Part shown: in pieces, positions 3,843-38,689 of the stretch
Position numbering within the stretch: the first letter of the stretch is position 1
Layout of the letters: every line of letters starts with the position of its first letter
Assembly: GCF_042453785.1 (NCBI RefSeq)
Contig: NC_091676.1
Span: 1,929,501-1,993,500 of the forward strand
Origin: Malus domestica
Lineage: Eukaryota > Streptophyta > Magnoliopsida > Rosales > Rosaceae
Direction of reading: 5' to 3'
DNA: 64,000 bases
Program-made: the position numbers and the translations under genes
Notes under the pieces: model-generated
The model's input: the letters and a program-made list of their open reading frames with translations, nothing else
Told to the model about the DNA's origin: nothing
Database searches by the model: none

Positions 3843-4231
3843 AATGCTGGCTCGTCTGTCTAAAATCTTGATCGATTATGCGTCTACGTTGGTTGCTATG
3901 AATTTGAAGGAGAGGAACAGGCGGTGGTTTGCTACGTTATTAGGTGCATGGGGGGTTGAAACTTGAAAGAAGGTAAAGAAAGTGGTTTGGCTGTAGGGCT
4001 TGTGGGTTTTGGTGCGTTAGGAAGAAAGAGGATTAATTTGATGGGCAAACTGGAGTGAGTGAGAGACGTGTTCTTATGGGGCTCTTTTTCCACTAGGTCA
4101 TCGGTGGAAGGATGTTGCTTTTTGGACCAGGGAATTGCACTGCATGTGGATGGTCCAAATTAGTCGACCCCACCACCATTTACATTTCATATCTAATGGG
4201 TGTATGGGCGTATATACATGCAATCAATTTT

Positions 4232-9859: not shown

Positions 9860-10218
9860 TGTTGATACACAAAACCAGAGGTCTTGGAACAACGTAAATC
9901 CGACCTTGAATCTGCAAGTAATGTAAATAACACAAGATGTATTGTGGTTCACCCCAAAGTTTGGGCTACGTTCACACTGATTATTGTATTTCTCTTAGAG
10001 GTGAGGGAGATACCTCTGAATATGAGAGGGGATGTGAGAGGGATGATAAGGCTTCAAAAATGGCATCCCCTAATTGTGAGGGTGAGTAGTCCTTTTTATA
10101 GAATAAGGGCTCATCACTTATTACATATTTGCCTCTTCCTTTATTATATAATTACACTTAAGTCTCCCAAGTATTTATACGAGATCTAAATACGGATGCC
10201 CTAAGTATGGTACAAACA
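9860..10218 (-). repeat. 3' LTR of Gypsy-type element 1
   Basis: This is a 359-bp repeat beginning TGTTGATACA and ending GGTACAAACA on the plus strand. It is related to 13569-13928 (roughly nine in ten bases by eye) and to the LTRs of element 2. The bases next to its right end (GTAGTCCCCCAAG, 10219-10231) are a polypurine tract on the minus strand, which makes this the 3' LTR of a minus-strand element. Confidence 0.8.
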
Positions 10219-10437
10219 GTAGTCCCCCAAGTCTTCAGTCAAGAAAGTCTTTTGGCTGGAGACTTAAAATTCAGTCCATGTGTGGGCCGAAGTAACTAGA
10301 TGGCGTCTAGTACTGATACTCGACATGAGGCGGTGCCCAATTTGAAATGATGCTCAACTAGAAGTAGCACATGTTGCGAGGCTGCTCGGCTTGTGGCTTA
10401 TGTTGCCTTGGTTGGCTCGGCTTGTGGCGTTGAAGGT

Positions 10438-10700
10438 GAGGGAGTCCCTTTTATAGAATAAGGGCTTGCTCCTCAATACATAAATGATGGGCTAGAGTTG
10501 ATGCTCGCGGCGAAGCGGTTACTCAGTAGGCGGCGATGCTCTCTAATGATGGTGAGGGAGTCACTTTTATAGAATAAGGGATCGCTCCTCAATGCATGAA
10601 TAATGGGCTAGAGTTGATGCTCTCTAATGGTGGTGAGGGAGTCCCTTTTATAGAATAAGGGCTCGCTCCTCAATACATGAATAATGGGCTAAGTCCCCTA
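10438..10700 (-). repeat. Tandem repeat block a of element 1
   Basis: There are three to four imperfect units of about 75-100 bp, each containing GTGAGGGAGTC, TTTTATAGAATAAGGG, GCTCCTCAAT and GGGCTAGAGTTGATGCTC. The unit resembles the R/U5 part of the LTR, so the array may have grown from LTR sequence. The same units occur reversed at 20090-20440. Confidence 0.7.
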
Positions 10701-10856
10701 AGTATTTTTCATGAGGCCCCATTGAGGCTCAATATATGGTACATAATGTAGTCCCCCAAGTCTTCGGCCAATAGAGTCTGTTGGCTGGAGACTTCAAATT
10801 GAATCCATGTATGGGCCGAAGTGGCGGTTGTTCGAAGGTGGTATTTGTATACCCTG

Positions 10857-11115
10857 TACCGAAGCTTTGTAGGTGAAGCTTTGCAAGTGAAGCTTTATAG
10901 GTGAAGCTTTGCAAGTGAAGCTTTGAAGCTGGAGCTCTGTAAATGAAGCTGGAGCTCTGTAAATAAAGCTTTTGAAGCCAGAGCTTTTGTAAATGAAGCT
11001 TTTGAAGCTAGAGCTTTTGTAAATGAAGCTTTTGAAGCTGGAGCTCTGTAAATGAAGCTTTTGAAGCTAGAGCTTTTGTAAATGAAGCTTTTGAAGCTGA
11101 GCTTTTGTAAATGAA
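10857..11115 (-). repeat. Tandem repeat block b of element 1 (AAGCTT-rich)
   Basis: About nine units of 24-32 bp are built on GAAGCTTTTGAAGCTGGAGC and TTTTGTAAATG. The plus-strand open frames here only reflect the repeat. The reversed counterpart is at 19835-19940 with fewer units. Confidence 0.75.
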
Positions 11116-11124
11116 ACTTTTGAA

Positions 11125-11340
11125 GCTGATTGACCTGAGTGATATTCATTAATGTGTATGTTGATTGATATGAGTGATGCTCATGGATGTTGGCATGAGT
11201 GATGCTCATGGATGTTTACATGAGTGATGCTCATGAATGTTGGCATGAGTGATGCTCATGAATGTTTATGTATGATTGATATGAGTAATGCTCATGAATG
11301 TTTATGTATGATTGACATGAGTAATGCTCATGTATAATTT
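11125..11340 (-). repeat. Tandem repeat block c of element 1 (TGAGTGATGCTCATG)
   Basis: Seven or more units of about 28-36 bp share the near-palindromic TGAGTGATGCTCATG, so each unit can fold on itself. The counterpart in element 2 is at 19655-19830. Confidence 0.75.
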
Positions 11341-11344
11341 TGGA

Positions 11345-11575
11345 AGTACTAGACATACTTTTGATCACCTGGTTGGTGGTAATAGCAGCAGGTTGCCGAA
11401 TAATTTTGGAGTACTAGGCGTACTTTTGATCACCTGGTTGGTGGTAATAGCGGTAGGTTGTCGAATAATTGTGGAGTACTGGGCATACTTTTGATCACCT
11501 GGTTGGTGGTAATAGCGGCATGTTGTTGAATAATTGTGGAGTACTGGGCGTACTTTTGATAGTCTGGTTGGAGCT
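11345..11575 (-). repeat. Tandem repeat block d of element 1 (about 62-bp units)
   Basis: Four units of roughly 62 bp contain ACTTTTGATCACCTGGTTGG, TGGTAATAGC and GTTGCCGAATAAT. The counterpart in element 2 is at 19310-19640. Confidence 0.75.
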
Positions 11576-12089
11576 ATTTTGGGCTTATAGACCTTCACCC
11601 TTTTCACAACATTCCAGCCCATTTATTTTGGGCTTTGCCATTTTTTTTTTTACCCTCTGATGGAGTTTATACAGATGTCTCCGAAAGATAAGAAAAATAA
11701 ATAAATCATACATCTGTCAAAAAAGTAAATCACATCATTCTTGTGGGGTGTTTATTCCTTGCTTTTGCTTTTCTCTTTTCCATCGCACTTTTCTTTTGCT
11801 TTTATGTTTTCTCTGCAACTTTGAAGTTTGCCTCGCTTGAAATGACGAATAGGACTAATTGGTGACAGCTTACACCTTCCTCTTTTGCTTCTGTTGTTCT
11901 CTTTTCCACCGCACCTCTCTCTTTTACTGCATTTATTAGTCTGTTGCTGAGGTCCAGATGCATTAGCCTTTGCTTTACTTTGCAGATGGCAGACAAAAGT
12001 AAAGTAAAGTTCTTTTTACTTTGCTTTACTTTGCAGATTGCAGATGGCGGGGACATGGACTTGTCTTTCTTCTCTTTTCCTATTTACAC

Positions 12090-12178
12090 ACAGTCACAGT
12101 TAACACCCCACTCTCCATCGCTGCCTTCACTTGATCAATCTTCGCGTTATCCGGCAGCCTGAACCTTCTTATGAAAGT
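12090..12178 (-). pseudogene. Captured fragment of a class I small heat-shock protein
   Basis: Reading the minus strand gives [18 protein letters not shown] followed by [10 protein letters not shown], the characteristic last beta strands of the alpha-crystallin domain of plant HSP17/18 proteins. Only about 29 residues are present, with neither the rest of the domain nor the IxI tail. It follows directly, in the same frame, on the acyl-activating-enzyme fragment upstream, which is impossible in a native gene. This is a non-functional captured piece. Confidence 0.75.
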
Positions 12179-12193
12179 GATGAGATATAGAAG

Positions 12194-12376
12194 CATGACC
12201 ACCTCTCCGTAAGAAACTCTGAGGTGGGCAAGAGCAGAAGCGAGTCTGGTGCATCGTTCAAGTGTCTGTCTCCAAGTGTAGACGATGTTTCCATACACAA
12301 CAAATGGCTTGTCTTTGTAGATTATGGCGGAGCGCTCCTAGAAGATGATCGGAGAAAAAGGGATGTAGTTGGCAGA
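12194..12376 (-). pseudogene. Captured fragment of an acyl-activating enzyme (AMP-binding) N-terminus
   Basis: The minus-strand frame starts SANYIPFSPIIF, has an in-frame TAG, then [36 protein letters not shown] and VSYGEVV. This matches the N-terminal segment of plant AAE/AMP-dependent CoA ligases (canonical ANYxPLSPxxFLERxA...YTWxxTxxRCxxLASAL). The TAG replaces the Leu of FLER, so the piece is not translatable through. It ends abruptly at the join with the HSP20 piece. Confidence 0.75.
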
Positions 12377-12549
12377 TCACCTGATCGAACCCTCCATCAA
12401 TTTTACCAGCCAGGCAGCCCTCCCTCTTGGAAATAATAGATAGAAAGCCTAACAAGTGATTAACTTCCTTGGGTTTGTGTTGCCGTCGGATTAAAGAGAA
12501 AGAGGGTCTTCCCTTTGACTTTGGGATTGCTCCAAGCACAGACAAATGA

Positions 12550-12807
12550 TTGAGCATGCACAAAGAAATTGCTAGGTTTTCTGACCCTACAATTCTCCAA
12601 ACCCTTGTGATTTGAGAGAGTCATGGGGTTTCCCAAGAAATCAACACTCAATGAAGGAAAAGCTCTTGAATTTTCATCTTTAAATTGTGAGGTGCTGAAG
12701 GAGAGAGAAACCCTGAATTCCCATTTGGGGGATTTGGAGCCAACTGCAATTTCATCCAACCCAGAAGAAATGCAGAAAACACTCTGTGATGCAATTACCT
12801 TGGCCAT
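12550..12807 (-). pseudogene. Captured N-terminal exon, probably of a chloroplast thioredoxin-like 1 (ACHT type) gene
   Basis: This is a Met-initiated frame of about 86 residues rich in Ser with a transit-peptide look (MAKVIASQSVFC...), followed by VDFLGNPMTLSN and RKPSNFFVHAQ. I recognise this as the variable N-terminal region that precedes the catalytic domain in plant thioredoxin-like 1 proteins. The domain with the redox cysteines is absent; the frame runs into unrelated sequence (SFVCAWSNPKVKGK...) and stops near 12460. The identification is from memory of the family and moderately uncertain. Confidence 0.45.
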
Positions 12808-13004
12808 GTCGAATCAAACGCCCTTTTTCTGAGATTTCACAACGAAAACAAGAAAACTCACCAAATCTCACTTGATCTTCTGCTTATTCCGACTCCAAAA
12901 GTCCATTCAGACCATCGAAACCTCTTTGATCTGAGTCGGAAGCGACCTCCTCTTCCACTTCTTCTGCTTCCGCTTCATCGTCGCTGCTGATATTCAAGCA
13001 ATTA

Positions 13005-13259
13005 TTACGCCCGACGTCGTCGTTTTGCTAGAGAGACGAGATTCCTCCGTCGACCTGATTGACAGTGACGCCGTTGGAGTGCAACTGGGAATGGATCAGG
13101 ACCGATTTGGTCTTCGTCGTCTTCGGAGTCGACGGCAGACACTGGCTGGTAGAACTTGGCGGCAGGTGCATCATCGTTGTCGTCAATGTTGGTGTCGGAA
13201 TCGCTCCCGTTCTGGTAATTTATGACTTGGATGACGTCAGGTGGAGCTGTGGCGTTCAT
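13005..13259 (-). pseudogene. Acidic coding fragment of unknown origin inside element 1
   Basis: This is an 84-codon frame with GC content clearly above the flanks. It encodes MNATAPPDVIQVINYQNG, then a Ser/Asp-rich part (SDSDTNIDDNDD, VDSEDDEDQIGPDPFP), then a basic end. A different frame just downstream (12890-13000) reads NISSDDEAEAEEVEEEV, so the original protein may have continued after a frameshift. It looks like a captured host exon of a nuclear or RING-type acidic protein, but I cannot name the family. Confidence 0.35.
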
Positions 13260-13547
13260 CGTCGTCGTTCCAACTTCCAGCGATTAAGAGAACCAAAAAT
13301 ATGAGAAGAGTGAGAACGTTTTGGGGAAATGGACCGGAAACTCGGTTCTTTGTCAGCACTGGGACTCAAGGCGGCGGCCAAGAAACCACCCTGTAAGTTT
13401 TTGCCTCATTTCTCAATTCTAAACTTCTTTTATGAAATTAAAAAAAGCTAAGAAGTTGAATTGGGAGTTGAATTATTTGGTTGGTTATCTGCAGATCCAC
13501 GGCGGAGGTGAAAAAATGAAAAAGAACCAATATAACTTTTCGTATCG

Positions 13548-13566
13548 ATTCCCACAGACGGCGCCA
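13548..13566 (-). other. Primer-binding site of element 1
   Basis: The minus strand reads TGGCGCCGTCTGTGGGAAT two bases inside the 5' LTR. The TGGCGCC start complements a tRNA 3' end of the kind used by many plant Gypsy elements. It is identical to the site at 17369-17387. Confidence 0.75.
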
Positions 13567-13568
13567 AA

Positions 13569-13928
13569 TGTTGATGCACAAAACCGTAGGTCTTGGAACA
13601 ACGTAAATCCGACCGTGAATCTGCAAGTAATGTAAATAACACAAGATGTATCGTGGTTCACCCCAATGTTTAAGGTACGTCCACACTGATTATTGTATTT
13701 CTCTAAGAGGTGAGGGAGAGATACCTCTGAATATGAGAGGGGATGTAAGAGGGGTGAAAAGGCTTCAGAAATGGCCTCCCCTAATGGTGAGGGTGAAGAG
13801 TCCTTTTATAGAATAAAGGCTCTTCACTTATTACATATTTGCCCATTCTTTTATTACATAATTACACTTAAGTCTCCCAAGTATTTATATGAGATCTAAA
13901 TATGGAGGCCCTAAGTATGGTACAAACA
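13569..13928 (-). repeat. 5' LTR of element 1, also 3' LTR of a truncated neighbour
   Basis: This 360-bp LTR (plus strand TGTTGATGCA...GGTACAAACA) is bordered on its left by the primer-binding site of element 1. On its right (13929 on) lies another polypurine-type tract, GTAATCCCCCAAG. It therefore borders two interiors, as expected for a tandem LTR array made by recombination. Confidence 0.7.
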
Positions 13929-15535
13929 GTAATCCCCCAAGTTCCAGAGTGAGGGAAGCTCATCGGTTGGGGACTTGCAAGATCAAAGTCATTGAGTAAT
14001 CACGAAACTTCTAAGTATCGAAGTGTGGTATCATTTTCACTTGCCTTATTTGTCTCATATGTAGATGTGGCATCTTCTCTGGAAGTACTTTTCCTCCATC
14101 AATGGATGGTATCTTTAACCGATAAAGATGCACAAAGTAATGTATCAATTTCACTTGAAGCTTACTTGTAGTTTCGGGCTTGGTCAAGTGCGATACAAAC
14201 ACTGTAATAGGAGTCCCCCAAGTCACCGAATGAGGTAACAGACAAGGTAAGCAATTAGACTTCCAAGCAAGCAACCTGGATCGGAGGTTCGACTTCGACT
14301 TCCGGTTAATTGTTTTCCTTCTCCTTGTGTCGTAAACCGCAACAAGGATAAGGAAAAGCAAATGGAGAAGAGATGATATGAGATACTTTTGCTTTTGAAG
14401 AAGTAACTTTCCACGGGCTTATTCTTGAACTGGGTTGGAGGGTTTTCTGGTTTCCTCCAGAGTATAAGGCCGACTCAAGAATTTGAGGGTCAAAACAAGT
14501 CCATCAAATCTAGAGTACGTTCAACCCTGATGATATGGGATACTTTTGTTGTTGACAAAGTAGTAGATGTATCGACACATGTTCTGTTACGCTTGTCTCC
14601 ACATGCTTTCTTGTATCCTTCTCACTTGCCCTATATGTTCCTTAGGCAGATGTGGTATCTTCTCTGGAAGCATAAGATGTTGAAGATGAGTAATCGAGAG
14701 CAATGTCAGGTAAGTAATCAGGCAAGGGGTTCCATGCAGTTAGTTCCTGATTGGAAGCTTGATTCCAAGTGCTGACTGATTGCTCTCTTTCTCCTTATCT
14801 TGCAGGTAAGAACAAGGGAAAATGAAAAGACAGGGAAAAAGCATGATATGGGATACTCTTGCTTTTAACCCTGATGATATGAGATACTCTTGCTCTAGTG
14901 TGGCTTGTTTGCAGAGGTATTATCGGGAGGAAAAGAAACTGAGTATTTCGAGAGACTCTGCTGATAGTGCATTTTCAGATGTGAAGAAAAGTTGAGCATT
15001 TTTTTTTATTTGCAGGTCTGCCTGCCTGTGGAGGATGGAGGTCGACATATATAGAAGTCTCCCTAACAGCAAGTAATAGTGTTATGGAGCTCCAAATGAT
15101 CAACCTTCGGTGCCTCCTCCTTCTGGAGTTTTGCCTAGTACTGAGGCTCCGAATAATTACCATATGGTGCCTCATCTTTCTGGGGCTTTGCCGACTGCTG
15201 AGACTTCTTCTGAGCAACCTTTGTGAGGGCTCCCTCTTGTTTGTTTATTTTGATTCATGTATATGTACATATTTGTAACTTATCAGAGATATCAATAAAC
15301 AAGTTTTGCTTCATTTCAACGTATTGTGTTAAATACACCAAGGCCTTCTTCACTAAGTTCTTTGAATTTTTCCTTTTGTTAAAGCTTGTATGTTGAAGCT
15401 TTGTGAGTGAAGCATGTAGGTTGAGGTAGTGCTCCCTTAATTTCCCGAGTAAGGAAAACTTCTCGTTTGGAGACTTGAAAAATCCAAGTAACTGAGTGGT
15501 CGTGAGACTTCCGAGTATCAAGGTGCATAATCATA
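13929..15535 (-). mobile_element. Truncated interior of a third related LTR element
   Basis: The stretch begins (minus strand, 3' end) at a polypurine tract next to the shared LTR and lacks a second LTR on the right. It contains internal tandem motifs such as GATATGAGATACTTTTGC at about 14370, 14535, 14845 and 14875. The repeated phrases AAGTCACCGAATGAGG and CCGAGTAAGGAAAACTTC are followed by GGGGACTTG/GGAGACTTG. No polymerase or integrase is readable. Confidence 0.55.
15070..15223 (+). pseudogene. Pro/Ser-rich C-terminal coding remnant, antisense to the LTR element
   Basis: One plus-strand frame reads APNDQPSVPPPSGVLPSTEA, then MVPHLSGALPTAETSSEQPL and a TGA. It contains two related approximately 26-codon units, each with a PPSG/HLSG-x-LP-x-xEA/ET pattern. 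Upstream are a T-rich tract and TTGCAG (15006-15016), an acceptor-like site. An AATAAAC signal follows at 15294. It looks like the last exon of an extra, antisense ORF of the kind found between pol and the 3' LTR in some plant Gypsy elements. There is a stop in frame just upstream, so it is a remnant. Confidence 0.35.
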
Positions 15536-15740
15536 TGGTAGGATCCTTTTCCCCGAATCCTCAAGAAAAGGATCCGGCGAGGATCCTTTTCCCAAACGGA
15601 ATTTGCACACGTACCATTTTATAAAGAACAATCCTTAAGCTTATTCATTTAGGAGAGTGTCTTCAATTGGAAATTTAAGATATTTTAATAGATATATAAA
15701 TCTATGGCTTTTTATGGATAAATTGATTTGTAGAGATTTC

Positions 15741-16480
15741 AGGAGTGTATTCAATTGGGATTTTGAGGGATTTTAATTCTTTTAATGAATCTAGGGGTAT
15801 TCAATTAGGATTTTAAGTGATTCTCTGAAATTCAACGTGTATTCAATCAAAATTTTAAGATAGTTTATTAAAATTCTTAGAAATCCGGGTGTATTCAATT
15901 AAAATTTTAAATAAGTTTATACATTCCAAGTGTATTCAATTAGAATTTGAATTTAAAGAATTTGGAAAAGTTGAGGAATTAAAGAGAATTAGAGAGATTT
16001 TGTAATGTATTTTAAGCATCCACAAATCTCACATCTTCCCATAAGATTTCGAGGAAATCGAATCAAAATTTTACATGTAATCTCTACAAATCAATTAAAC
16101 TCCATAAAAATCTAAAATCGCTCAAATTCCCAATATAATACACCCCATTCATGTAAAATTTTGATTCAATTATCTTGAAATCTCATTGGAAAAATGAAGA
16201 TTTGTAGATGTTATACACTACAAAATCTTTCAAATTTCCTTTAATTCCTCAACTTTTTGAAATTCTTTAAAATCAAATTCTAATTGAATACACCTGAAAT
16301 GTTATAAACTTCTTTAAAATCTTAAATACACCCAAATTTCTAAGAATTTTAATAAACTATCTTAAAATCATGATTGAATACACATTGAATTTTAGAGAAT
16401 CACTTAAAATCCTGATTGAATACCCCTATATTCATTAAAGAATTAAAATCATTCAAAATCCTAATTGAATACACCCCTCT
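15741..16480. mobile_element. Foldback (long inverted repeat) DNA element, 740 bp
   Basis: The two halves are inverted copies of each other over almost their whole length. The left starts AGGAGTGTATTCAATTGGGA and the right ends TCCTAATTGAATACACCCCT. Matching inner segments include CTTAGAAATCC versus AATTTCTAAG and AGTGATTCTC versus GAGAATCACT. A unit of the type GTGTATTCAATTxxxATTTTAA is repeated within each arm. No coding capacity. Sequence from about 15650 to 15740 is related and may be an older partial copy. A similar, more decayed repeat is at 63700-63900. Confidence 0.75.
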
Positions 16481-17002
16481 AAGTTAAATGGCATATGTTA
16501 CCACTCATTGTTACCGTTGGGCTCAATTTTGGTTCTTATTTTTTGCATTGGTAATCAAATAGTTCACGAGATATTTAAGATGATATTTCTTGGTGTATGT
16601 TTTTCGCAAATAATATAATGCTGATAAATGAAATGCATGAGTGAGTAAATACAAAGTTTAACCGTTAGCGATAAGTGTTGTAATCTAAGGGTCTTCGCCT
16701 AAGTAGGTCAAAGCCATAATATATTTAGTGCAAGTTTAGTGAGAATGAGGATCCAAATGAGAGATGGGTGATGATTGGAGATCTGGAAGTACCAAATGGT
16801 GAACGCTTTCACTATAGTAGATCAATTTTGTAAAAGAACTTAGATTTGAATGAAGATCTCAACAATAAAATACATGCTAAGTAAATATAGTGAAATAAAG
16901 TATTTAATGTATTGTGCGACCGTCCTATGTGCCTCAAGGGAGGAATATGGTGCTCCTTTTGCAACAGGATTCTTTTCACTAGTTTTTTTAATAGTGATAT
17001 AT
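16481..17002. other. Intergenic, nothing recognisable
   Basis: AT-rich sequence between the foldback element and element 2, with no gene-like frame. 17003-17007 (ATGTT) is the left target duplication of element 2. Confidence 0.4.
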
Positions 17003-17007
17003 ATGTT

Positions 17008-17366
17008 TGTTTATACCATATTTAGGGTCTCATATTTAGACCTCATATAAATACTCGAGGGACTTAAATGTAATTATGTCATAAAGGAATGGGCAAATAT
17101 GTAATAAGTGAGAAGTCATTATTCTATAAAAGGACCCCTTACCCTCACAATTAGATGAGGCCAATTCCTAAGGTTCCTCACCTTCTCAACGCTCTCACTC
17201 TCAGAGCTCTCTCTAGCCCTCACTTCTTAGAGAAATACAATACAATCAGTGTGGACGTAGCATAAACCTTGGGTTGAACCACGATACATCTTGTGTTATT
17301 TACATTACTTGCAGATTCACGGTCGGATTTACGTTGTTCCAAGACCTCCGGTTTTGTGCATCAACA
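17008..17366 (+). repeat. 5' LTR of Gypsy-type element 2
   Basis: This 359-bp LTR starts TGTTTATACC and ends TGCATCAACA. It contains a TATA-like stretch (TTCTATAAAAGG near 17130). The partner is at 20651-21007. It is preceded by ATGTT (17003-17007) and followed after two bases by the primer-binding site. Confidence 0.85.
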
Positions 17367-17368
17367 TT

Positions 17369-17387
17369 TGGCGCCGTCTGTGGGAAT
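17369..17387 (+). other. Primer-binding site of element 2
   Basis: TGGCGCCGTCTGTGGGAAT sits immediately downstream of the 5' LTR and is identical to that of element 1, so the two elements used the same tRNA primer. Confidence 0.8.
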
Positions 17388-18244
17388 CGATACAAAAAGT
17401 TGTGTTGGTTCTCTTTCATTTTTTTCACCTCCATTGTGAATCTGCAAAAATCACAAAAAACCAAGAACACCACAGTGTGTCTCTCTCTAAAAATCCTGAG
17501 ATACCCAGAAAAGCCCATATCTCTGTTTAAAAAAAAAATACAACAGAAACAAAAAGCAATATCCAAACTGCAATTACCGAATCCAAAGCAACATCCGACA
17601 CCTATGCTTTTCCCTCCCTCTCTGTCCTTGTAATTTGTCGACACCAAGGAAACCCAGCTCCCTCTCTTTCTCTCTAAAACCATAGAGATGTTCAAGTAGT
17701 CATGCTGAAGATGTTGTTTCTATCTCTCATTTTTCTTACAAACTAATATAAAATAAAAAAATATCGATGGATTTTAAAACTCAAGCTAGCGAAATGAGGA
17801 CTATCTCTCTCTCTTTCTCCTCAAGTCCTTGTCTTTTTCAACCTCTCTAAAAATCCATGGATAATCTGAGGTACCCGCCGCCGCCGACTTTGATGGTCCC
17901 CAGTCGTCACATAAGCGGGAATCTGCACACACAGAGAGCTGCTCGGAGCAGGTGGTGTAGCTGGAGTTGGCGTGCAAGGTGAGGAGCGAGCCCAAGTAGA
18001 AGGAGTAAGAGAGAGACGCACTGGAGACCCCGTCTAGTTACATAGATATGACGGTGGAGAACGGGTTCGGAGCGCAGTTCCAGAGAGGGAATGAGAATAA
18101 GTTGCATGCATTTGGAAAATTTGGCGATACCAGTTTGTTGGAGGAGACATCTTCATCATCTCAGTCACACAAGAAATCAACAGCGAACCCGGATATAACT
18201 CCCACCAGCCCGTTGATCTTTGACGATCCTGAAATTGCAGAAAA

Positions 18245-18409
18245 ATGACGGAGGAGGAAGAGCTGAAAAAGAGAATAGTGGTCGTGGAATCCCTCGGATG
18301 GCTGACAGAGTCCTCAATCATACCGAAGAAGCACCGCGCCATTAGAGGCGTTGGAGCCTCCTCAATCATGGAGCTATGGGCCCAACTTTATCAGTTCCAA
18401 GAAGAATCT
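18245..18409 (+). pseudogene. Captured N-terminal fragment of a conserved plant protein (CCDC174-like)
   Basis: The frame from 18245 reads MTEEEELKKRIVVVESLGW, then LTESSIIPKKHRAI, GVGASSIMELWAQLYQFQEES. The segment SSIxELxAQLYxxQEE is what I recall from the N terminus of plant proteins related to CCDC174. The reading then degenerates into a repeated HGPSHGPS and the frame ends at 18487 without the rest of the protein. The family name is tentative. Confidence 0.4.
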
Positions 18410-18555
18410 CATGGCCCATCTCATGGCCCATCATCCCTAAATCTTGCCTCCGTCGATCTCATGGCCCGTCTCCTCTGTTCGGCGTAGCCGAACGACGTTG
18501 TTTTTCTGCAAGGATCGACCCTGCCCTTCGCCACCATCGCCGTCATTGTCGACCA

Positions 18556-18720
18556 CCAACCTCGATCCCTCCATCATAGCCGCCGAATCTTGGGCCAGAG
18601 CCGAGGAGGCAACCCAGAAGATAGTCTCAAAGATTCAACCCACTCTGGCGGCCTACCAAATGAGGAAGGAGGTCATCCAATACGTGGCAGCCCTTATTAC
18701 ACAGCATCTCAAAGGCTGCA
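18556..18720 (+). pseudogene. Captured fragment of a non-canonical poly(A) polymerase-type nucleotidyltransferase
   Basis: One plus-strand frame reads TTNLDPSIIAAESWARAEEA, TQKIVSKIQPTL and RKEVIQYVAALI. This is the helical N-terminal segment preceding the GS catalytic motif in plant PAP/OAS1-like nucleotidyltransferases (typically WxRAEExTxxIxxxIQPT...RxxVxxYVxxLI). The GS and DxD catalytic motifs are absent and the frame becomes unrelated after about 18720. It lies in sense orientation to the element. Confidence 0.6.
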
Positions 18721-18899
18721 AATCGAGATATCAATGGCTTCTAATCTTCCTACATGACGCATAAGCAACTCAGTGGAGGAGTAGTGGATCAATCAGTACT
18801 CCACCTGCTTTAGCTGAATTCGTTGCCACTTTCATTATTGTCTTTGCCGAGAAGACTCTGTTTTTGCTCTTGGGAAGACCAGCAAGGATTTTCTATTAT

Positions 18900-19160
18900 T
18901 AACTATGTTATTATTGCCTGCCATTTTCTAAAAGACAGCAAAAGCAAAGCAAAATAGAAAAAGAAAAAGACAGAGATAGAGAAAAAGACAATGGAAACAT
19001 AATAGAAAAAGAAAAAAGAGACTGAGTGGGAGAGGTGTGGTGGAAAGGAGGAAAGCAAAAGGGAGGCACATGGGGATAAAGAGAAAGCAAAAGGGAGGCA
19101 CATGGGGACACTGCAAAAGCAAGGAATAAACACCCCACCAAAATGATGTAATTTATTTTC
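18900..19160. repeat. Purine-rich stretch with a duplicated 30-bp segment inside element 2
   Basis: Long A/G runs with GAAAAAGACAGAGAT-type phrases precede two nearly identical copies of GAAAGCAAAAGGGAGGCACA (around 19050 and 19083). The minus-strand frames here are low-complexity shadows. 11740-11810 in element 1 has related reversed sequence. Confidence 0.4.
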
Positions 19161-19309
19161 CTTATCTTTCGGAAACATTTATATAAACCCCATCAGAAGG
19201 GTAATATGTATAAACCCCATCAGAGGGTAAAAAAAAAAAGGCAAAGCCCAAAATAAAATGGCTGGAATGTTGTGTGGAGGTCGAAGGTCCATAAGCCCAA
19301 AATAGTTCC

Positions 19310-19640
19310 AACCAGGCGATCAAAAGTACGCCCAGTACTCCACAATTATTCGACAACTTGTTGCTATTACCACAAACCAGGTGATCAAAAGTACGTTCAG
19401 TACTCCAAAATTATCCGACAACCTACCGCTATTACCACCAACCAGGTGATCAAATGTACAACCCGTACTCTAATATCATTTGGCAACTAGCCATTCATGC
19501 CACAAACCAGGTGATGAAAAGTACAACCCGTACTCTAAATATCATTTGGCAACCAGCCATTCATGCCACCAACCAGGTGATGAAATGTACAACCCGTACT
19601 TTCCTTCGTGCCACTAACCATGTGATCAAAAGTACACCTA
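19310..19640 (+). repeat. Tandem repeat block d of element 2
   Basis: About five units of 58-64 bp have CCAGGTGATCAAAAGTAC, AGTACTCCA and a variable CTATTACCAC/CATTCATGCC end. Reversed counterpart of 11345-11575. Confidence 0.75.
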
Positions 19641-19654
19641 GTACTCCAAATTAT

Positions 19655-19835
19655 ACATGAGCATTACTCATGTCATTCATACATAAACATTCATGAGCAT
19701 CACTCATGACAATCATACATAAACATTCACGACCATCACTCATGTTAACATTCATGAGCATCACTCATGACAACATCCATGAGCATCACTCATGTCAATC
19801 AACATAAACATTCATGAGCATCACTCATGTCAAAC
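19655..19835 (+). repeat. Tandem repeat block c of element 2
   Basis: About six units carry the near-palindrome CATGAGCATCACTCATG separated by TCAATCATACATAAACATT. Reversed counterpart of 11125-11340. Confidence 0.75.
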
Positions 19836-19940
19836 AGCTTCAAAAGCTTCATTTACAGAGCTCTAGCTTCAAAAGCTTCATTTACAGAGCTCTAACTTCA
19901 AAACTTCACTTGCAAAGCTTCACCTACAAAGCTTCAGTGC
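19835..19940 (+). repeat. Tandem repeat block b of element 2
   Basis: There are three to four units of CTTCAAAAGCTTCATTTACA with GAGCTCTAG, reversed counterpart of 10857-11115. The lower unit number shows array contraction or expansion between the two elements. Confidence 0.7.
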
Positions 19941-20089
19941 AGGGTATACAAATACCGCATCCGAACAACCGCCACTTCGACCCATACATGGATTCAATTT
20001 GAAGTCTTCAGCCAACAGACTCTATTGACTGAAGACTTGGGGGACTACATTATGTACCATATATTGGGCCTCAATTGGACCTCATGAAA

Positions 20090-20440
20090 AATACTTGGGG
20101 GACTTAGCCCATTACTTATGTATGGAGGAGCGAGCCCTTATTCTATAAAGGGGACTCCCTCATTTTCATTAGAGAACATCCATTATTCATGTACTGAGGG
20201 GCGAACTCTTATTTTATAAAAGGGACTCCCTCACCATCATTAGAGAGCATCGCCGCTTACTGAGCAACTGCATCACCGCGAGTATCAACTCTAGCCCATC
20301 ATTTATGTATTAAGGAACGAGCCCTTATTCTATAAAAGGGACTCCCTCACCATCATTAGAGAGCATCAACTCTAGTCCATCATTCATGTATTGATGAGCG
20401 AGCCCTTATTTTATAAAAGTGACTCCCTCTCCTTTAAACG
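20090..20440 (+). repeat. Tandem repeat block a of element 2
   Basis: Four to five units of about 75 bp carry GAGCGAGCCCTTATTCTATA, AAAGGGACTCCCTCACCATC and ATTAGAGAGCATC. Just before it (20030-20100) is an internal copy of a polypurine tract plus LTR-start-like sequence (TTGGGGGACTACATTATG). Confidence 0.7.
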
Positions 20441-20650
20441 CCGCAAGCCGAGCCAACCAAAAGCAACATAAGCCACGAGCCGAGCAGCCTTGCAGTGTGT
20501 GTTACTTCTAGTTGAACATCATTTCAGATTGAGCATCGCCTCATATCGAGCATCAGTTCAAGACAACATCTAGTTACTTCGGCCCACACATGGACTGAAT
20601 TTCAAGTCTCCAGCCAAAAGACTCTCTTGACTGAAAACTTGAGGGACTAC

Positions 20651-21007
20651 TGTTTATACCATATTTAGGGCCTCGTATTTAGACATCGTATAAATACTCG
20701 AGGGACTTAAATGTAATTATGTGATAAAGAAATGGGCAAATATGTAATAAGTGAGGAGTCCTTATTCTATAAACTGACCCCCCACCCTCACAATTAGGGG
20801 AGGCTAATTCCTAAGGCTCCTCACCCTCTCAAAGCTCTCACTCTCAGAGCTCTATCTCCCTCACTTCTCAGAGAAATATAATACAATCAGTGTGGATGTA
20901 GTCCAAACTTTGGGGTGAACCACAATACATCTTGTGTTATTTACATTACATGCAGATTCACGGTCGGATTTACATTGTACCAAGACCTCCGATTTTGTCC
21001 ATCAACA
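20651..21007 (+). repeat. 3' LTR of element 2
   Basis: 357 bp, TGTTTATACC to TCCATCAACA, followed by the ATGTT duplication. It differs from the 5' LTR at scattered positions, so the insertion is not recent. Confidence 0.85.
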
Positions 21008-21074
21008 ATGTTAATTTATCTTAGACATTGCCACGTCACCTAATAATATAATGACAATCATCTAAATTTTAATG

Positions 21075-21540: not shown

Positions 21541-22650
21541 ATGCCTCTAATCGCATCCAGACCATCCTTAATCTCCCTCGTCGCCGCCCTTCTCATCATC
21601 TTGGTGGCCCCAATCCCATCGCTGACCCATGCCGGAAAGCCCCACCTCATCAATTTCCGATCCCCCAACCTCTTCCCCGAAGGCCTCGCCTACGACTCAT
21701 CCGCCCAGCACTTCATTGTCGGCTCCATCCGCCAACGCACCATCCACTCTGTGTCCGACGCCGGCGTCGTCGATACCCTCATCTCCGACCCCACCCTCCC
21801 CGACAACGTCACCGTCCTCGGCCTCGCCGTCGATAAACTCAACAACCGCCTCCTCGCCTGCATCACTGCGATGGACCCGCTTCCCCAATTCCACGCGCTC
21901 GCCGCCTACGACCTCCGCACGCGCCAGCGCCTTTTCCTCGCTCCCCTCCCGTCAGACGACGAGGGGCCGCGTCCGGTCGCGAACGACGTCGCGGTGGACT
22001 TCAAAGGCAACGCCTACGTCACCAACTCGGCCGGCAACTACATCTGGAAGGTCAACGCTCAAGGGGAGGCTTCCATCTTCTCCAAGTCACGCGCCTTCAC
22101 GTCGCAGCGCGTGGACCCGGACTTTCCGTACAGTTTCTGCGGCCTGAACGGCGTCGCTTACAACAGCAAGGGATATCTCTTGGTGGTGCAATCGAACACC
22201 GGCAAGATGTTCAAGGTGGACGCCAACGACGGCACGGCGAGGTTGGTGCTGTTGCCGGAGGACTTAAATATCGCGGACGGGGTCGCGATCCGAAGCGACG
22301 GCGTCGTTCTGGTGGTGTCCCACAAGACACTGTGGTTCCTGAAGAGCCAGGACAGTTGGGGGGAGGGCGGAATTTATGACAAAATTGCCCTTGATCCGGA
22401 GGGGTTTCCGACTTCGGTGGCGGTCGGGGGGGAGGACAGGGTGTACGTGTTGCGGGGGCACGTGTTGGAGGGTCTGAGGGGAAATGTGGAGCGGGAGGAG
22501 TTTAATATTGGGGAGGTGAGGTCGGAGAGGGAGAGCAAGGAAGACGGTGTTTGGATCTTCGTTTTGATCGGGTTGGGATTGGCTTATTTCCTGTTTTGGA
22601 GGTTTCAGATGAGGCACCTCGTTGGCAACTTGAACAAAAAAACCAATTAG
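21541..22650 (+). CDS. NHL/SMP-30-like beta-propeller protein with signal peptide and C-terminal membrane anchor
   Basis: An intronless frame of 369 residues. Residues 1-31 are a signal peptide or anchor (SLISLVAALLIILVAPIPSL). The body has propeller-type repeats: FPEGLAYDSSAQHFIVGSI, VLGLAVDKLNNRLLACI, ANDVAVDFKGNAYVTNSAGN, GLNGVAYNSKGYLLVVQSNT, IADGVAIRSDGVVLVVS and PTSVAVGGEDRVYVL. These have the G-(L/V)-A-(Y/V)-D strand pattern of SMP-30/strictosidine-synthase-like and NHL proteins. A C-terminal hydrophobic helix (WIFVLIGLGLAYFLFW) plus a basic tail suggests a type I membrane protein facing the lumen or apoplast. Enzymatic activity is unproven. The CDS is GC-rich in its first two thirds, unlike its surroundings. 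It looks like Arabidopsis At2g01410. The 3' end is duplicated at 30416 and 38353. Confidence 0.85.
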   Translation: MPLIASRPSLISLVAALLIILVAPIPSLTHAGKPHLINFRSPNLFPEGLAYDSSAQHFIVGSIRQRTIHSVSDAGVVDTLISDPTLPDNVTVLGLAVDKLNNRLLACITAMDPLPQFHALAAYDLRTRQRLFLAPLPSDDEGPRPVANDVAVDFKGNAYVTNSAGNYIWKVNAQGEASIFSKSRAFTSQRVDPDFPYSFCGLNGVAYNSKGYLLVVQSNTGKMFKVDANDGTARLVLLPEDLNIADGVAIRSDGVVLVVSHKTLWFLKSQDSWGEGGIYDKIALDPEGFPTSVAVGGEDRVYVLRGHVLEGLRGNVEREEFNIGEVRSERESKEDGVWIFVLIGLGLAYFLFWRFQMRHLVGNLNKKTN

Positions 22651-24327
22651 CCTTTTGGAGGCTTTTTTTTTGTTTTTTGTTTTTTTTGGTTTTTCACGTT
22701 TTTAGTTTTCATTCTGTAGATTACTATTTTAACACCTGTAAGTTGTTTGCTCGTTTGATGAAATAAAATAAATTAGTTTTTATCATACTTTGACCTAACG
22801 AAAGATATGTGCAAAACTAAATACAATACATTCTAGAGCTTCATATAGCTAATCCCACTTAATAAGATATGACGTTGTTATTGTTATCGTACATTTGATC
22901 TTCCAAAATACAACGCCATTTACCAACATTGGATCAATTATTACAATATTTTGTTGAAGAAAACGAACCAGCTAAACACAAGTGATATTTATACTCTAAA
23001 CTACTCTAAGAGGAGAGAGAGGGTTTGAATTAGAGTCGATATGAGTTGAAGAAGACCATAATCATCAGGGCAATCCACCACTAGCCCTTATGACAATTAA
23101 GAATCAAACTGAAAGACCGAACAATTAAATCCGGCTTGTTACAACTTAATCACCTTTCGAGAATACAGTTCAAAGGGACCTTACAGAAAACCAAAAAAGA
23201 CTCATCCTACTACAAAGCCAAATTTAAACCATCTTCTTAGTTCGTGATCCATTTGTATCTGTGAACAGGTAAATTTATCAGTGCTTAGACCTTTGGGATG
23301 AAAACATTGAAGCTGGAGATGACAAAACAGATCATATGTTCGGTACTTCTTACTGAGATCACCATGAATTCATCAAGACAAGCTTGATTACATAAATTAT
23401 TAAGCATACATTGCGGACAGAAATTAACTCTAGCAATGTGAACCACAAGGCAAAGATTACAAAACATGTGGCCCGCCTAACCGAGACCTAGTATCAAAAT
23501 CTTCATAACTTATCTCCACCAAAAAAATACGATTGTTAGATTCTATGGACGATAAGTGTGATTGTCTCTTCTCTGCTTGAGTGAAACTCCAGATAGGTTG
23601 GGTGCGGAATTACAATGAAATAAAATGCCAACTATGAAATTTAAGGATGCCACGGCCCATGGTTTAACATCATGCTCTTAACTTGTTTCGATATGGACAA
23701 AAGTAAGCAGATCAGCCGCATAGAAACAACCGTAACTTATACCACCAACGATGGTAAGGGGTACCATTTATGAAAAGATACACTTAGTTTCACATGGCAC
23801 GAGACGAAAGCTTCCCATAACAACTGCATAGCAGTCTGCACTCAATGACGCAAATTAGTTATTTCCTTTGAACCAACTAACTGAACTAACTGCAAATAGC
23901 TCTGTAGCCTCACATAACATAGGCCGTATCAGCCAATTGCTCGAGTAAAAAACTGCTAACCCTCCCTCATAACAAACATTAGAACATCAAAATAGTGCAC
24001 GCAAACCTTACATCTTACAGTTTAAGTTTCTCGCTAAATCTCCGGAAATAAGGAACAGAATATGCTATACTTGGCCCATAACAAAGCGTATTGACGTTCT
24101 AAGATTCATAAAACCGAGCCCACTTAGTGACTAAGGCTTTGTTGTTGTAAGGAACATAATATACTAAACTAAACTAGTCATTCATTGTTGTGAAATTGCT
24201 CATGTCTTTGATCTGTAAATACGCGAACTAAAATAGTAACATTACCCAATAAAGGAAAACCCAGATGCATTTCCAGTTGAAAACTTCACAAATAAATTAT
24301 AAAAAAAACAAAAAAATTTGAATATTT

Positions 24328-24533: not shown

Positions 24534-24852
24534 TGGTATCAAGAGCAGGTTAATTGGACCTGTCTCGGTGCCGTCTGTCTGAGTGATTCATGAACTCGTG
24601 AGTATATCACCAGCACTGCACCACTGGACGCTTCCGACTGAACCTGTGCACCGACTTGAATTTGCATCTGCTCAGTTCGCTGCAATCATCGCAGCCAACT
24701 GGACCACCGCCACACCGCACCCACCATCTGTCGCACTGCTTCAGTCTGCATCAATCTGCATCTTTGCATCTGCATCAATTTGCATCAGTCGCATCTGCAC
24801 CTTTGATCTGCATCTGCACCAGGTATCGTGCTCCTTGTTCCTCAGTATTGTC

Positions 24853-25704
24853 ATGGCATCTGCAAAGGACGATTCCTTACAAGCTATTGGTGTGAAATTG
24901 AATGGAAATAATTATGTGTATTGGGCATATGTGATGAAGAATTTTTTGATTGGAAAAGGTTTGTGGGGCTATGTTTCTGGAATGATTTCTATTCCAAATA
25001 ACCCTAAAGATGAGAAACATTTTGAATTGGTTGCTGCATGGGAGATGAATAATTCAAAGATTATTACGTGGATTAATAATTCTGTTGATTTGGCTATTGG
25101 AATGCAACTAGCTAAGTTCTCAACGTCTAAGGAAGTTTGGGATCACTTGGCAAAGTTGTATACCAAGGCCAATTTTGCTAAGAGGTATCAATTGGAAATG
25201 GAGATTCGTACAATCCAGCAAGGTGATAAGAGTATTCAAGTGTTTTACAATGAACTGACCAATCTTTGGGATCAACTTGCATTAACTGAGCCTGAAGAAC
25301 TCGGCATTGTCAAGCTCTATTGTAAATATAGAGAAGAACAACGTCTTGTTCAGTTTCTAATGCCTCTTCGGGATGAGTTCGAGACACTCTGTAGCTCCAT
25401 CCTTCATCGAACTCCTCTTCCATCTGTTGATTATGTTCTTAATGAGTTACAAGCAGAAGAAGTTCGTGTGCAGTGGCATAGGCTCTCTTCATCGTCGTCA
25501 AATATTTCAGCATTTGCTGCGGCAAGGTCTCGTAGGGTTGCTATAGATGAGTGTTCTTATTGTAAAGGGAAAGGGCATTGGAAATCCCAATGTCCTAAGT
25601 TGTCTCAGCAACATGAACTTCCACATAAAGGAGGAGCAGCTGCTGTTTTGCATATTGGAACTGATTCAAAATCTGAATCTAGGAAGGATGATTGGACATG
25701 GTAG
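24853..25704 (+). CDS. Copia-type Gag polyprotein of the gag-only element
   Basis: A 283-residue frame from ATG 24853, open upstream to 24583 (373 residues) if an earlier start is used. The N terminus MASAKDDSLQAIGVKLNGNN and YWAYVMKNFLIGKGLWGYVS match the start of plant Copia Gag (the YxxWxxxMxxxLxxxxLW module). The UBN2-type core follows (EVWDHLAKLYTKANFAKRYQ, EIRTIQQGDKSIQVFYNEL). Near the C terminus is a zinc knuckle CSYCKGKGHWKSQCP (CX2CX4HX4C). The frame ends at 25704 without protease, integrase or RT. Gag would package the element RNA while replication enzymes come from elsewhere. The start at 24853 follows the family pattern; the upstream 90 codons are His/Ser/Cys-rich and unlike Gag. 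Confidence 0.8.
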   Translation: MASAKDDSLQAIGVKLNGNNYVYWAYVMKNFLIGKGLWGYVSGMISIPNNPKDEKHFELVAAWEMNNSKIITWINNSVDLAIGMQLAKFSTSKEVWDHLAKLYTKANFAKRYQLEMEIRTIQQGDKSIQVFYNELTNLWDQLALTEPEELGIVKLYCKYREEQRLVQFLMPLRDEFETLCSSILHRTPLPSVDYVLNELQAEEVRVQWHRLSSSSSNISAFAAARSRRVAIDECSYCKGKGHWKSQCPKLSQQHELPHKGGAAAVLHIGTDSKSESRKDDWTW

Positions 25705-30141: not shown

Positions 30142-30415
30142 TACAAGTGATGTAAACTCTTTTAAATTATGAAAAAGGAGTTCGAACTCGTGTGGAAAGA
30201 AAATCACACCACTCAAACTAATTTGTTTGTTTAAATATTGTAGGATGCATGCATGATTGAATAAGGTAAATCATCCCATGTGGATTCATCAATATAAAAA
30301 TATCTGATGGTGTGGAAGGGAACTAGGGTATTATTACAAAGGCTGTGCTCGTGTGATTCTGAAATGTCGATAGAATCCGAGGGTCGAATACTAGATGTGC
30401 TCGTGTCAAACTCAG
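30142..30415. repeat. Unique-looking leader joined to duplication copy B
   Basis: This 270-bp stretch (GCAAGTGATGTAAACTC-like start, then GAGTTCGAACTCGTGTGG and GCTGTGCTCGTGTGATTCTG) precedes copy B and is repeated with the same junction at 38080-38352. Its last part (GTGCTCGTGTGATTCTGAAA) recurs alone at 44964-45020. Confidence 0.7.
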
Positions 30416-30540
30416 GAGAGCAAGGAAGACGGTGTTTGGATCTTCGTTTTGATCGGGTTGGGATTGGCTTATTTCTTGTTTTGGAGGTTTCAGATGAGAC
30501 ACCTCGTTGGCAACTTGAACAAAAAAACCAATTAGCCCTT
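30416..30540 (+). pseudogene. 3' end fragment of the beta-propeller gene (copy B)
   Basis: Matches codons for SKEDGVWIFVLIGLGLAYFL through the stop of the gene at 21541-22650 with few substitutions, but nothing upstream. A longer frame reading through it from 30307 is out of register with the parent protein. Confidence 0.8.
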
Positions 30541-31273
30541 TGGAGGCTGTTTTTTTTTTTGGGTTTTTCATGTTTTTGGTTTTTTTTTTGTATTTGTTTT
30601 CATTTAGCAGATTATTATTTTGACACTTATCAGTTGTTTGCTCATTTTATGAAATAGAATAAATTAGTTTTTATCATACTTGTGCAAAACTAAGTACAAT
30701 GATATTCTAGGATTTCATACCGCTGACTCCACTTAGTAAGATATGGCGTTGTTATTGTTATTGTACATTTGATCTTCCAAAATACAATGCCATTTACCAA
30801 CATTGGAACAATTATTATAATATTTTGTTGAAGAAAAAGAATCAGCTAAACACAAGTGATTATGTCTACTCTAAACTACACTAAGAAGAGAGAGAGGGTT
30901 AGAATTAGAGTCGATATGAGTTGAAGAAGACCATAATCATCAAGACAATCCACCACTAGTGTCAAGTTCAACACGCTTTTTTAACCTCATTTGCTCCTCA
31001 TGCGTTGCAAAATTATAAAATATTCGGTTTAAAGTGCTGTTCCTCTCTGTCGAAAAGGAAAATTCCAAATTACTTTGATTTGGAGTGCAGATAGCTAAAA
31101 CAGAATTGTCCAAAGTCGTTAACTAGGAAGCAAAAATGATCACGCACTCATAGGTTTATTACTCATAGGTTCATAAAGTTCTCAACTAACAGGGCAAAAG
31201 TCCGCACCAAACAAAAAGTTTGATCTACCCCAACAGTGGGATGACCATTTATCTGAATCGACAATTACCCATC

Positions 31274-38079: not shown

Positions 38080-38522
38080 CAAGTGATGTAAACTCGTTTA
38101 AATTATTAAAAAGGAGTTCGAACTCGTGTGGAAAGAAAATCACACCACTCAAACTAATTTGTTTGTTTAAATATTGTAGGATGCATGCATGATTGAATAA
38201 GGTAAATTATCCCATGTGGATTCATCAATATAAAAATATCTGCTGATGTGGAAGGGAACTAGGGTATTATTACAAAAGGCTGTGCTCGTGTGATTCTGAA
38301 ATGTCGATAGAATCCGAGGGTCGAATACTAGATGTGCTCGTGTCAAACTCAGGAGAGCAAGGAAGACGGTGTTTGGATCTTCGTTTTGATCGGGTTGGGA
38401 TTGGCTTATTTCTTGCTTTGGAGGTTTCAGATGAGACACCTCGTTGGCAACTTGAACAAAAAAAAAACCAATTAGCCTTTTGGAGGTTTTTTTTTTTTTT
38501 TTTTTTTGGTTTTTCATGTTTT
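38080..38522. repeat. Segmental duplication, short copy C
   Basis: Repeats 30142-30579, including the junction between the 270-bp leader and the last 120 bp of the beta-propeller CDS (38353 on), then stops in a poly-T run followed by unrelated sequence. The shared junction shows copies B and C derive from one another rather than independently from the gene. Confidence 0.85.
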
Positions 38523-38689
38523 TGTTGGACTTCTCTCTATATTGTATGCGCTTATAAGTAGTTGGCCTTCTCCATATATTGCCACGTAGTTTTATAATGG
38601 AACCTCAACTTCTTCAATACTGCATTATACATAAACTTAATTTGACCTATACTGAAAATATGAGTATACCCCTTAGAATTCAATTTTTA

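Follow-up and report, generated by a model that had tools for sequence, protein, structure and literature searches.

Host-gene cargo that differs from copy to copy in a family of LTR retrotransposons in apple

Two elements of about 4 kb lie in opposite orientation within a 64,000-nucleotide stretch of the apple (Malus domestica) genome, hereafter the window (C16:1929501-1993500). Element A and element B have the same ends and unrelated centres that hold pieces of different host genes, and the question is how one set of ends comes to enclose such different cargo. What is observed is a frame that stays constant around a centre that varies, cargo that derives from host genes and lies in sense orientation, aligned introns that are missing exactly, and gene pieces joined in chains. 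From sequence comparison, A and B are very probably members of a high-copy, non-autonomous long terminal repeat (LTR) retrotransposon family that repeatedly captures pieces of host mRNA during reverse transcription.

Fixed ends and variable centres

Each element is flanked by paired LTRs with TG..CA ends and carries a primer-binding site just inside the 5′ LTR. Self-comparison of the window agrees with the initial annotation that A and B run in opposite orientation and have their LTRs, primer site, and order of repeat blocks in common. A 3′ frame of about 1.5 kb of tandem repeats is common to both (A 10217-11768 aligns to B 20651-19113 at ~79-92% by piece), as is the leader, which had been put at ~60 bp and is instead about 80 nt long. 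The internal region measures ~3.3 kb in A and in B. LTR identity is 91.3% within A and 90.3% within B, and Kimura two-parameter (K2P) distances are 0.083 within A, 0.099 within B, and 0.126-0.159 between A and B. The primer site has 17 exact tRNA-like matches in the genome searched (651 Mb in 19 contigs), compared with 0 for a reversed control; these 17 tRNA genes carry TTT in the anticodon loop, and we take the primer to be tRNA-Lys(UUU).

9860-13928, minus: element A, 4069 bp
9860-10217, minus: A 3′ LTR
10218-11767, minus: A 3′ frame of tandem-repeat blocks, also present in B, with matches in all 10 fetched copies
11768-13489, minus: A cargo, whole
13490-13568, minus: A leader, ~80 nt, present in 12 of 12 copies
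13545-13566, minus: A primer-binding site, 22 nt complementary to tRNA-Lys(UUU) plus CCA
13569-13928, minus: A 5′ LTR
17003-17007, no strand: B target-site duplication ATGTT, left
17008-21007, plus: element B, 4000 bp
17008-17366, plus: B 5′ LTR
17367-17446, plus: B leader
17369-17390, plus: B primer-binding site, tRNA-Lys(UUU)
17447-19113, plus: B cargo, a mosaic of pieces with different genomic matches
19114-20650, plus: B 3′ frame of tandem-repeat blocks
20651-21007, plus: B 3′ LTR
21008-21012, no strand: B target-site duplication ATGTT, right

The two centres, each ~1.7 kb (A 11768-13489; B 17447-19113), have no match to each other in the self-comparison, as the initial annotation had reported. 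B is bounded on both sides by a 5-bp target-site duplication (TSD). A has none: its left flank reads ACATA, and on its right the 5′ LTR abuts the polypurine-like end of another internal region, X.

The genome-wide query that the initial annotation proposed was run as a sample in the window's genome. A 541-bp query spanning the 3′ LTR and the part of the frame next to it retrieved 4242 first-look candidates, a figure that counts matches rather than elements. All 40 of those scored match the query (A itself and 39 others at 88-92%), so the resemblance of A and B is not due to chance. Ten of the 39 listed loci (rows 2-10 and 12) were fetched at 3.3 kb each, picked by score and not by cargo; with A and B they form a cargo-unbiased sample of 12 copies, the ten ranking high in similarity to A's 3′ end. 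Every one of the 10 fetched copies has the LTR, the leader, and the 3′ frame, with a later start of the frame match and a leader match of 62 nt in L047. The leader stops at nearly the same position, after ..GAATCTGCA plus an A-rich tail, in every one of the 12.

Between these ends the copies differ. Centre lengths range from 961 to 1870 bp and none of the 12 is empty. Cargo starts, taken as the first 300 nt counted from 30 nt beyond the leader motif, fall into 12 different clusters in the 12 copies. The cargo of A has no match to the other 11 centres, and the sole pair with long common stretches is L039/L040 (594, 173, and 149 bp at 87-90%), which overlap over much of their 3′ half. Five further pairs have 26-94 bp in common. 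The repeated gene-capture vehicle of the initial annotation is thus supported by ten more copies with the same ends and, except for one pair, different cargo; a single cargo in all copies, which it had named as the contrary outcome, is not what the 12 centres hold.

Some cargoes have amplified, as judged from the recurrence of L047's cargo on C2 and of 1162 bp of A's cargo at one other place (92%, among 46 listed genome matches). A 135-kb stretch, C3:5581325-5715918, holds nine matches (93-94%) to part of the L046 cargo, mostly ~15 kb apart, and resembles an array of tandemly duplicated segments that include part of an element. At 1697-1967, L079 has ~270 bp that are extra relative to L041 cargo position 192 and are bounded by CAG|GT..CAG, as if the element RNA itself had been spliced.

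Host-gene pieces and their probable origin in spliced RNA

Pfam matches (E ≤ 0.01) to the open reading frames (ORFs) of 50 aa or more in the 12 centres are strongly asymmetric between strands. The 104 sense ORFs (8580 aa) match 16 families, including Alfin, EAF, SBP, ribosomal S21, HSP20, I29, AMP-binding, DOG1, SOUL, Bax1-I, and Alliinase_C, whereas the 96 antisense ORFs (7325 aa) match one, weakly (E 0.0024). A few of the 16, such as Herpes_UL92, are probably chance matches. The claim of host-gene pieces in sense orientation is confirmed by this count.

Genome searches with seven of the 12 cargoes (A, B, L041, L045, L046, L044, and L047) returned matches to different genomic places piece by piece, often paired in a way consistent with the apple whole-genome duplication. 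Fifteen loci fetched with A, B, and L041 cargo (L012, L016, L018, L020, L023, L032, L053, L059, L060, L070, L071, L075, L080, L081, and L085) have no LTR or frame in the stretch read and resemble the genes themselves; they amount to nine distinct sources. One of the loci, L018, lacks an intron that is present in L023 and is perhaps a retrocopy. The pieces of A and B with their matches are as follows.

13344-13489, minus: A piece P1, matching two places on C15 and one on C12
12930-13341, minus: A piece P2, from a host gene at C3:4389197-4389709 (upstream sequence, start codon, two exons), second match on C11
12555-12883, minus: A piece P3, from a host gene at C14:28266745 (95%; upstream sequence, ATG, first exon), second match on C6
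12173-12556, minus: A piece P4, from an AMP-binding enzyme gene at C5:4701376- (upstream exon, ATG, second exon, then 28 nt)
12083-12178, minus: A piece P5, internal fragment of HSP20 (small heat-shock protein), Pfam 5.2e-08, profile 56-87/102
18224-18408, plus: B piece from a host gene at C10:37587733, second match on C5, ATG included
18431-18686, plus: B piece from a host gene at C11:4544468, second match on C3, ATG included
18674-18808, plus: B piece matching C6:30703099 (93%) and C14:26910225 (88%)

As many as five loci are chained in one element, L041: the L085 locus, a C9/C17 pair, SOUL, ribosomal S21, and an N-terminal piece that we take to be armadillo-like. L046 alternates between templates, with c94-166 and c398-717 matching one stretch of C8 and c169-404 between them matching C5 and C10. 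A's P2 is also carried by L014, L019, L029, L030, L033, and L034, with different flanks in each.

Two pieces can be aligned to their sources with the splice signals read. P2 exactly lacks a 94-bp GT-AG intron and P4 exactly lacks a 463-bp GT-AG intron. Introns may also have been lost in L044 (SBP gene C9:30026711-30027786 in three blocks; C11:35423885-35424291), L041 (C9 and C17), and L047 (C15:144567-144832), where the matches are split exon by exon with gaps. Since two introns are exactly missing and these gapped matches point the same way, capture appears to have gone largely through spliced RNA.

The pieces tend to include the beginnings of genes. Each of nine distinct gene-like sources (L012, L016, L023, L053, L059, L070, L075, L080, and L085) contributed its first in-frame ATG with some upstream sequence, L023 being judged by eye. 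By eye, two pieces (L023 and L075) start 25-35 nt downstream of a TATA-like box. Five junctions at which the sources on either side are identified were examined. Three of these (P3|P4, SOUL|RPS21, and RPS21|ARM) overlap by 1, -1, and 3 nt, while P2|P3 and L059|L053 leave 46 and 25 nt unassigned, the latter gap being filled with copies of a 12-bp unit from the incoming gene. None of the five shows an insertion boundary (TSD or terminal repeat) by eye; nested insertions with boundaries of their own, which the initial annotation had set against its proposal, are not found there. A rule that pieces end at splice sites was considered for P3, P4, and SOUL; P4 continues for 28 nt, leaving two of five junctions, and the rule is not claimed.

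The cargo meets the 3′ frame in an A/G-rich tract. In all 11 anchored copies (L047 is not among them) the best 60-nt window before the frame is 78-92% purine, and AAGCAAAAG occurs 1-5 times in the tract. In 10 of 11 copies the remaining cargo has no AAGCAAAAG and does not attain the purine peak of the tract, L045 being the exception in both respects.

Proposed template switching and its rivals

The proposed mechanism begins with an element that would replicate on the proteins of a separate partner. Minus-strand cDNA would be primed by tRNA-Lys, transfer to the element RNA's 3′ end, and copy U3 and the tandem-repeat frame first. Within the A/G-rich tract that borders the frame on its 5′ side, the cDNA end would switch onto a co-packaged host mRNA, which reverse transcriptase would copy towards its 5′ end. 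The cDNA could then jump to another mRNA or to element RNA once or more before landing on the A-rich end of the leader, which would restore primer site and leader. Such a cycle would yield an element whose ends are unchanged and whose centre is a new series of sense-oriented gene pieces, most of them without introns. The packaging, the enzyme, the minus-strand timing, the switching at mRNA 5′ ends, and the partner are parts that we infer. If templates are switched during minus-strand synthesis, the pieces should be in sense, should have lost introns, and should follow one another in series, the primer site should be restored, and 5′ parts should face the leader or the interior of the next gene; each of these is observed.

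A stronger form of the proposal is a standing mRNA-sampling machine, in which the centre would be rebuilt in most cycles from co-packaged mRNAs, with run-off at capped 5′ ends and re-landing at the A-rich leader site. This form is held tentatively, at somewhat under even chances. If it is true, insertions archive the 5′ ends of past transcripts and keep creating chimeric first exons.

Several results weigh against repeated capture by template switching or narrow it. No coding partner was found, X having been tried as a candidate. Four Pfam matches are internal to their profiles (HSP20 56-87/102, SBP 39-74/75, Alliinase_C 284-333/363, and Tim29 57-110/169); such internal mRNA pieces mean that 5′-end switching is not the sole mode, and they weaken the idea that all pieces are exact mRNA 5′ ends. 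P1 has no gene-like source, as both fetched match loci (L014/L038 and L034) are elements, and several B pieces likewise have none among the loci compared. Source identities range widely, from ~77 to 96%. The last 28 nt of P4 come from ~400 bp beyond the second exon (L016 1775-2176) across a shared GGT, with a GT and no AG; the missing AG at the acceptor led to the rejection of a third exon. Ordinary splicing does not explain the tail, for which a jump within a single unspliced RNA is a possible origin. The L047 cargo has a 93% full-length match on C2, L039 and L040 share cargo, and a larger, biased set of loci sharing cargo with A, B, or L041 (3 duplicate loci dropped, starts under 250 nt excluded) has 45 non-redundant cargo starts in 25 clusters. 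This shared cargo indicates that some transpositions make no new cargo.

Capture at the DNA level, or ectopic recombination and gene conversion between elements and genes, could also fill the centre, as has been proposed for Pack-MULEs and Helitrons. Pieces common to elements with different neighbours are what recombination would give, the A 5′ LTR abuts another internal region, and the last 28 nt of P4 lack a canonical splice join. However, this explanation predicts neither two exactly removed introns nor domain matches that fall almost entirely on one strand, and it is considered very unlikely, while exchange between elements may add to the mixing. More improbable still is the view that miniature inverted-repeat transposable elements (MITEs) or retrogenes were later nested into one ancestral element, which would fit a constant frame whose cargo differs between copies and the 25 and 46 unassigned nt at two of five junctions. 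Against it, the pieces at the other three junctions meet to within 1-3 nt, inspection by eye reveals neither a TSD nor a terminal repeat at the five, the leader-side boundary is nearly constant in 12 of 12 copies, and no empty centre occurs among the 12. Intron loss, sense bias, and tight junctions led to the rejection of both DNA-level capture and nested insertion. Splicing-derived capture, in which read-through transcripts of the element are joined to the first exons of host genes by cis- or trans-splicing, would leave pieces that end at splice sites; by eye, the P3 and SOUL pieces do end at or beside a GT-type exon edge, at two of five junctions. The P3/P4 joint lacks an AG on the P4 side, however, and the RPS21, ARM, P2, and L059 pieces end where the gene has no GT by eye, so that this explanation is unlikely.

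A more serious alternative is that a few ancient captures were followed by amplification, recombination of co-packaged element RNAs, and loss of copies. This would explain the different flanks of P2 in its six other carriers, the common 3′ half of L039 and L040, and the full-length match of the L047 cargo; LTR distances of 0.083-0.099 and the many source matches of only 77-93% also fit it. Conversely, the best source matches (L012 95%, L016 95%, and L075 96%) exceed the identity between A's two LTRs (91.3%), with the qualification that coding exons change more slowly, and all 12 cargo starts are different in copies picked regardless of cargo. A history of old chimeras is thus judged the less probable account, though one with a substantial share of the odds. 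Repeated mRNA capture by template switching differs from this main remaining rival in degree, the latter positing fewer initial captures and subsequent exchange between element RNAs. The shared pieces indicate that such exchange does occur.

Relation to known elements and neighbouring features

Pack-MULEs and Helitrons are DNA transposons with many copies that have common ends and different host-gene pieces. The apple family resembles them in combining common ends with varying host-gene pieces, but differs in its LTRs, its primer site, and pieces with introns missing. Its ends are direct LTRs with a primer site, which does not fit a Pack-MULE or Helitron, no search having been made for Helitron ends. 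Of the two labels given by the initial annotation, Ty3/Gypsy would rest on a reverse transcriptase-RNase H-integrase pol or on an autonomous partner; the 104 sense cargo ORFs gave no gag or pol family among their 16, and the label is unproven. The other, LARD, is described in PMC4668562 as having a large (usually >4 kb) conserved non-coding internal region. It misfits a family whose internal region is ~3.3 kb and whose centre is not conserved. At 4069 and 4000 bp, A and B are also too long for the very small elements called TRIMs.

Host gene fragments between LTRs, without introns in the two that were aligned, place A and B with gene-capturing elements of the Bs1 type. Maize Bs1 is an LTR retroelement with pieces of three host genes (PMC13317346). 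The likeness lies in an LTR retroelement bearing pieces of several host genes; Bs1, known here from its description, is described with one chimeric cargo, whereas the apple family has a constant frame and cargo that varies by copy. GmaRetroS15 of soybean, itself a TRIM with pieces of three genes, and the gene-carrying TRIMs are non-autonomous, have 5-bp TSDs, and carry exon-only pieces of up to three genes, one from a 5′ untranslated region; these TRIMs measure 1,172-1,449 bp and comprise 30 elements in seven subfamilies, all but two with at least 2 copies (PMC4717578). The apple elements are likewise non-autonomous, with a 5-bp TSD in B and mostly intron-free pieces of several genes, but they are ~4 kb long, their 3′ frame consists of tandem repeats, and no two of the 12 copies begin with the same cargo. 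In rice and sorghum, 672 and 1,343 genes have been counted inside LTR elements (PMC3726574), a tally over all elements that, in the text available, names no single family with exchangeable cargo. For complex elements of the Triticeae, abnormal template switching in reverse transcription has been proposed (PMC1950507); their shared-LTR complexes resemble the X-A arrangement, but two retroelements are fused there and not host mRNAs.

The kind of element is already known from Bs1 and GmaRetroS15, and the novelty is nearly copy-specific cargo within one fixed-leader, repeat-framed family. No prior description of the A/B family was recognised in searches of the open-access PMC literature, and one may exist elsewhere. 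Few families of LTR elements are described that capture genes through RNA. With nearly every sampled copy holding its own chain of pieces, this one would offer a natural experiment, on a large scale, in template switching, in how chimeric genes arise, and in sources of small interfering RNAs. How captures start and end is testable, because many junctions with identifiable sources are expected in one genome. Caution is needed in annotation, as such cargo can be called as genes.

The region 13929-17007 is part of neither A nor B. It contains X (13929-15540, minus), the 3′ internal end of a very abundant family joined exactly at the edge of an A-type LTR. A search for X relatives gave 7730 first-look candidates, of which 40 were scored; the comparison also drew on L089 and L090. 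One X copy that was read, on C6, has similar tandem repeats. X was rejected as the autonomous partner: the 410 nt at the 3′ edge of the C6 copy have no match to A or B, and sense ORFs of at least 60 aa in the 2.5 kb read reach a maximum of 243 aa, the two longest being repeat-derived. Another 3′ frame (103-1063, element sense) lies directly upstream of the L046 5′ LTR, like X next to A, so shared-LTR arrangements recur.

Between X and B lies a long inverted repeat (15741-16478) with arms of ~340 bp at 86.6% identity, MITE-like by eye. Elsewhere in the window, a 373-aa ORF at 24583-25701 has a Copia-type gag match, and 22530-23000, 30415-30875, and 38352-38526 are copies, 85-93% identical, of another dispersed repeat. 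A portion of a quinolinate phosphoribosyltransferase gene is found at 55064-55507.

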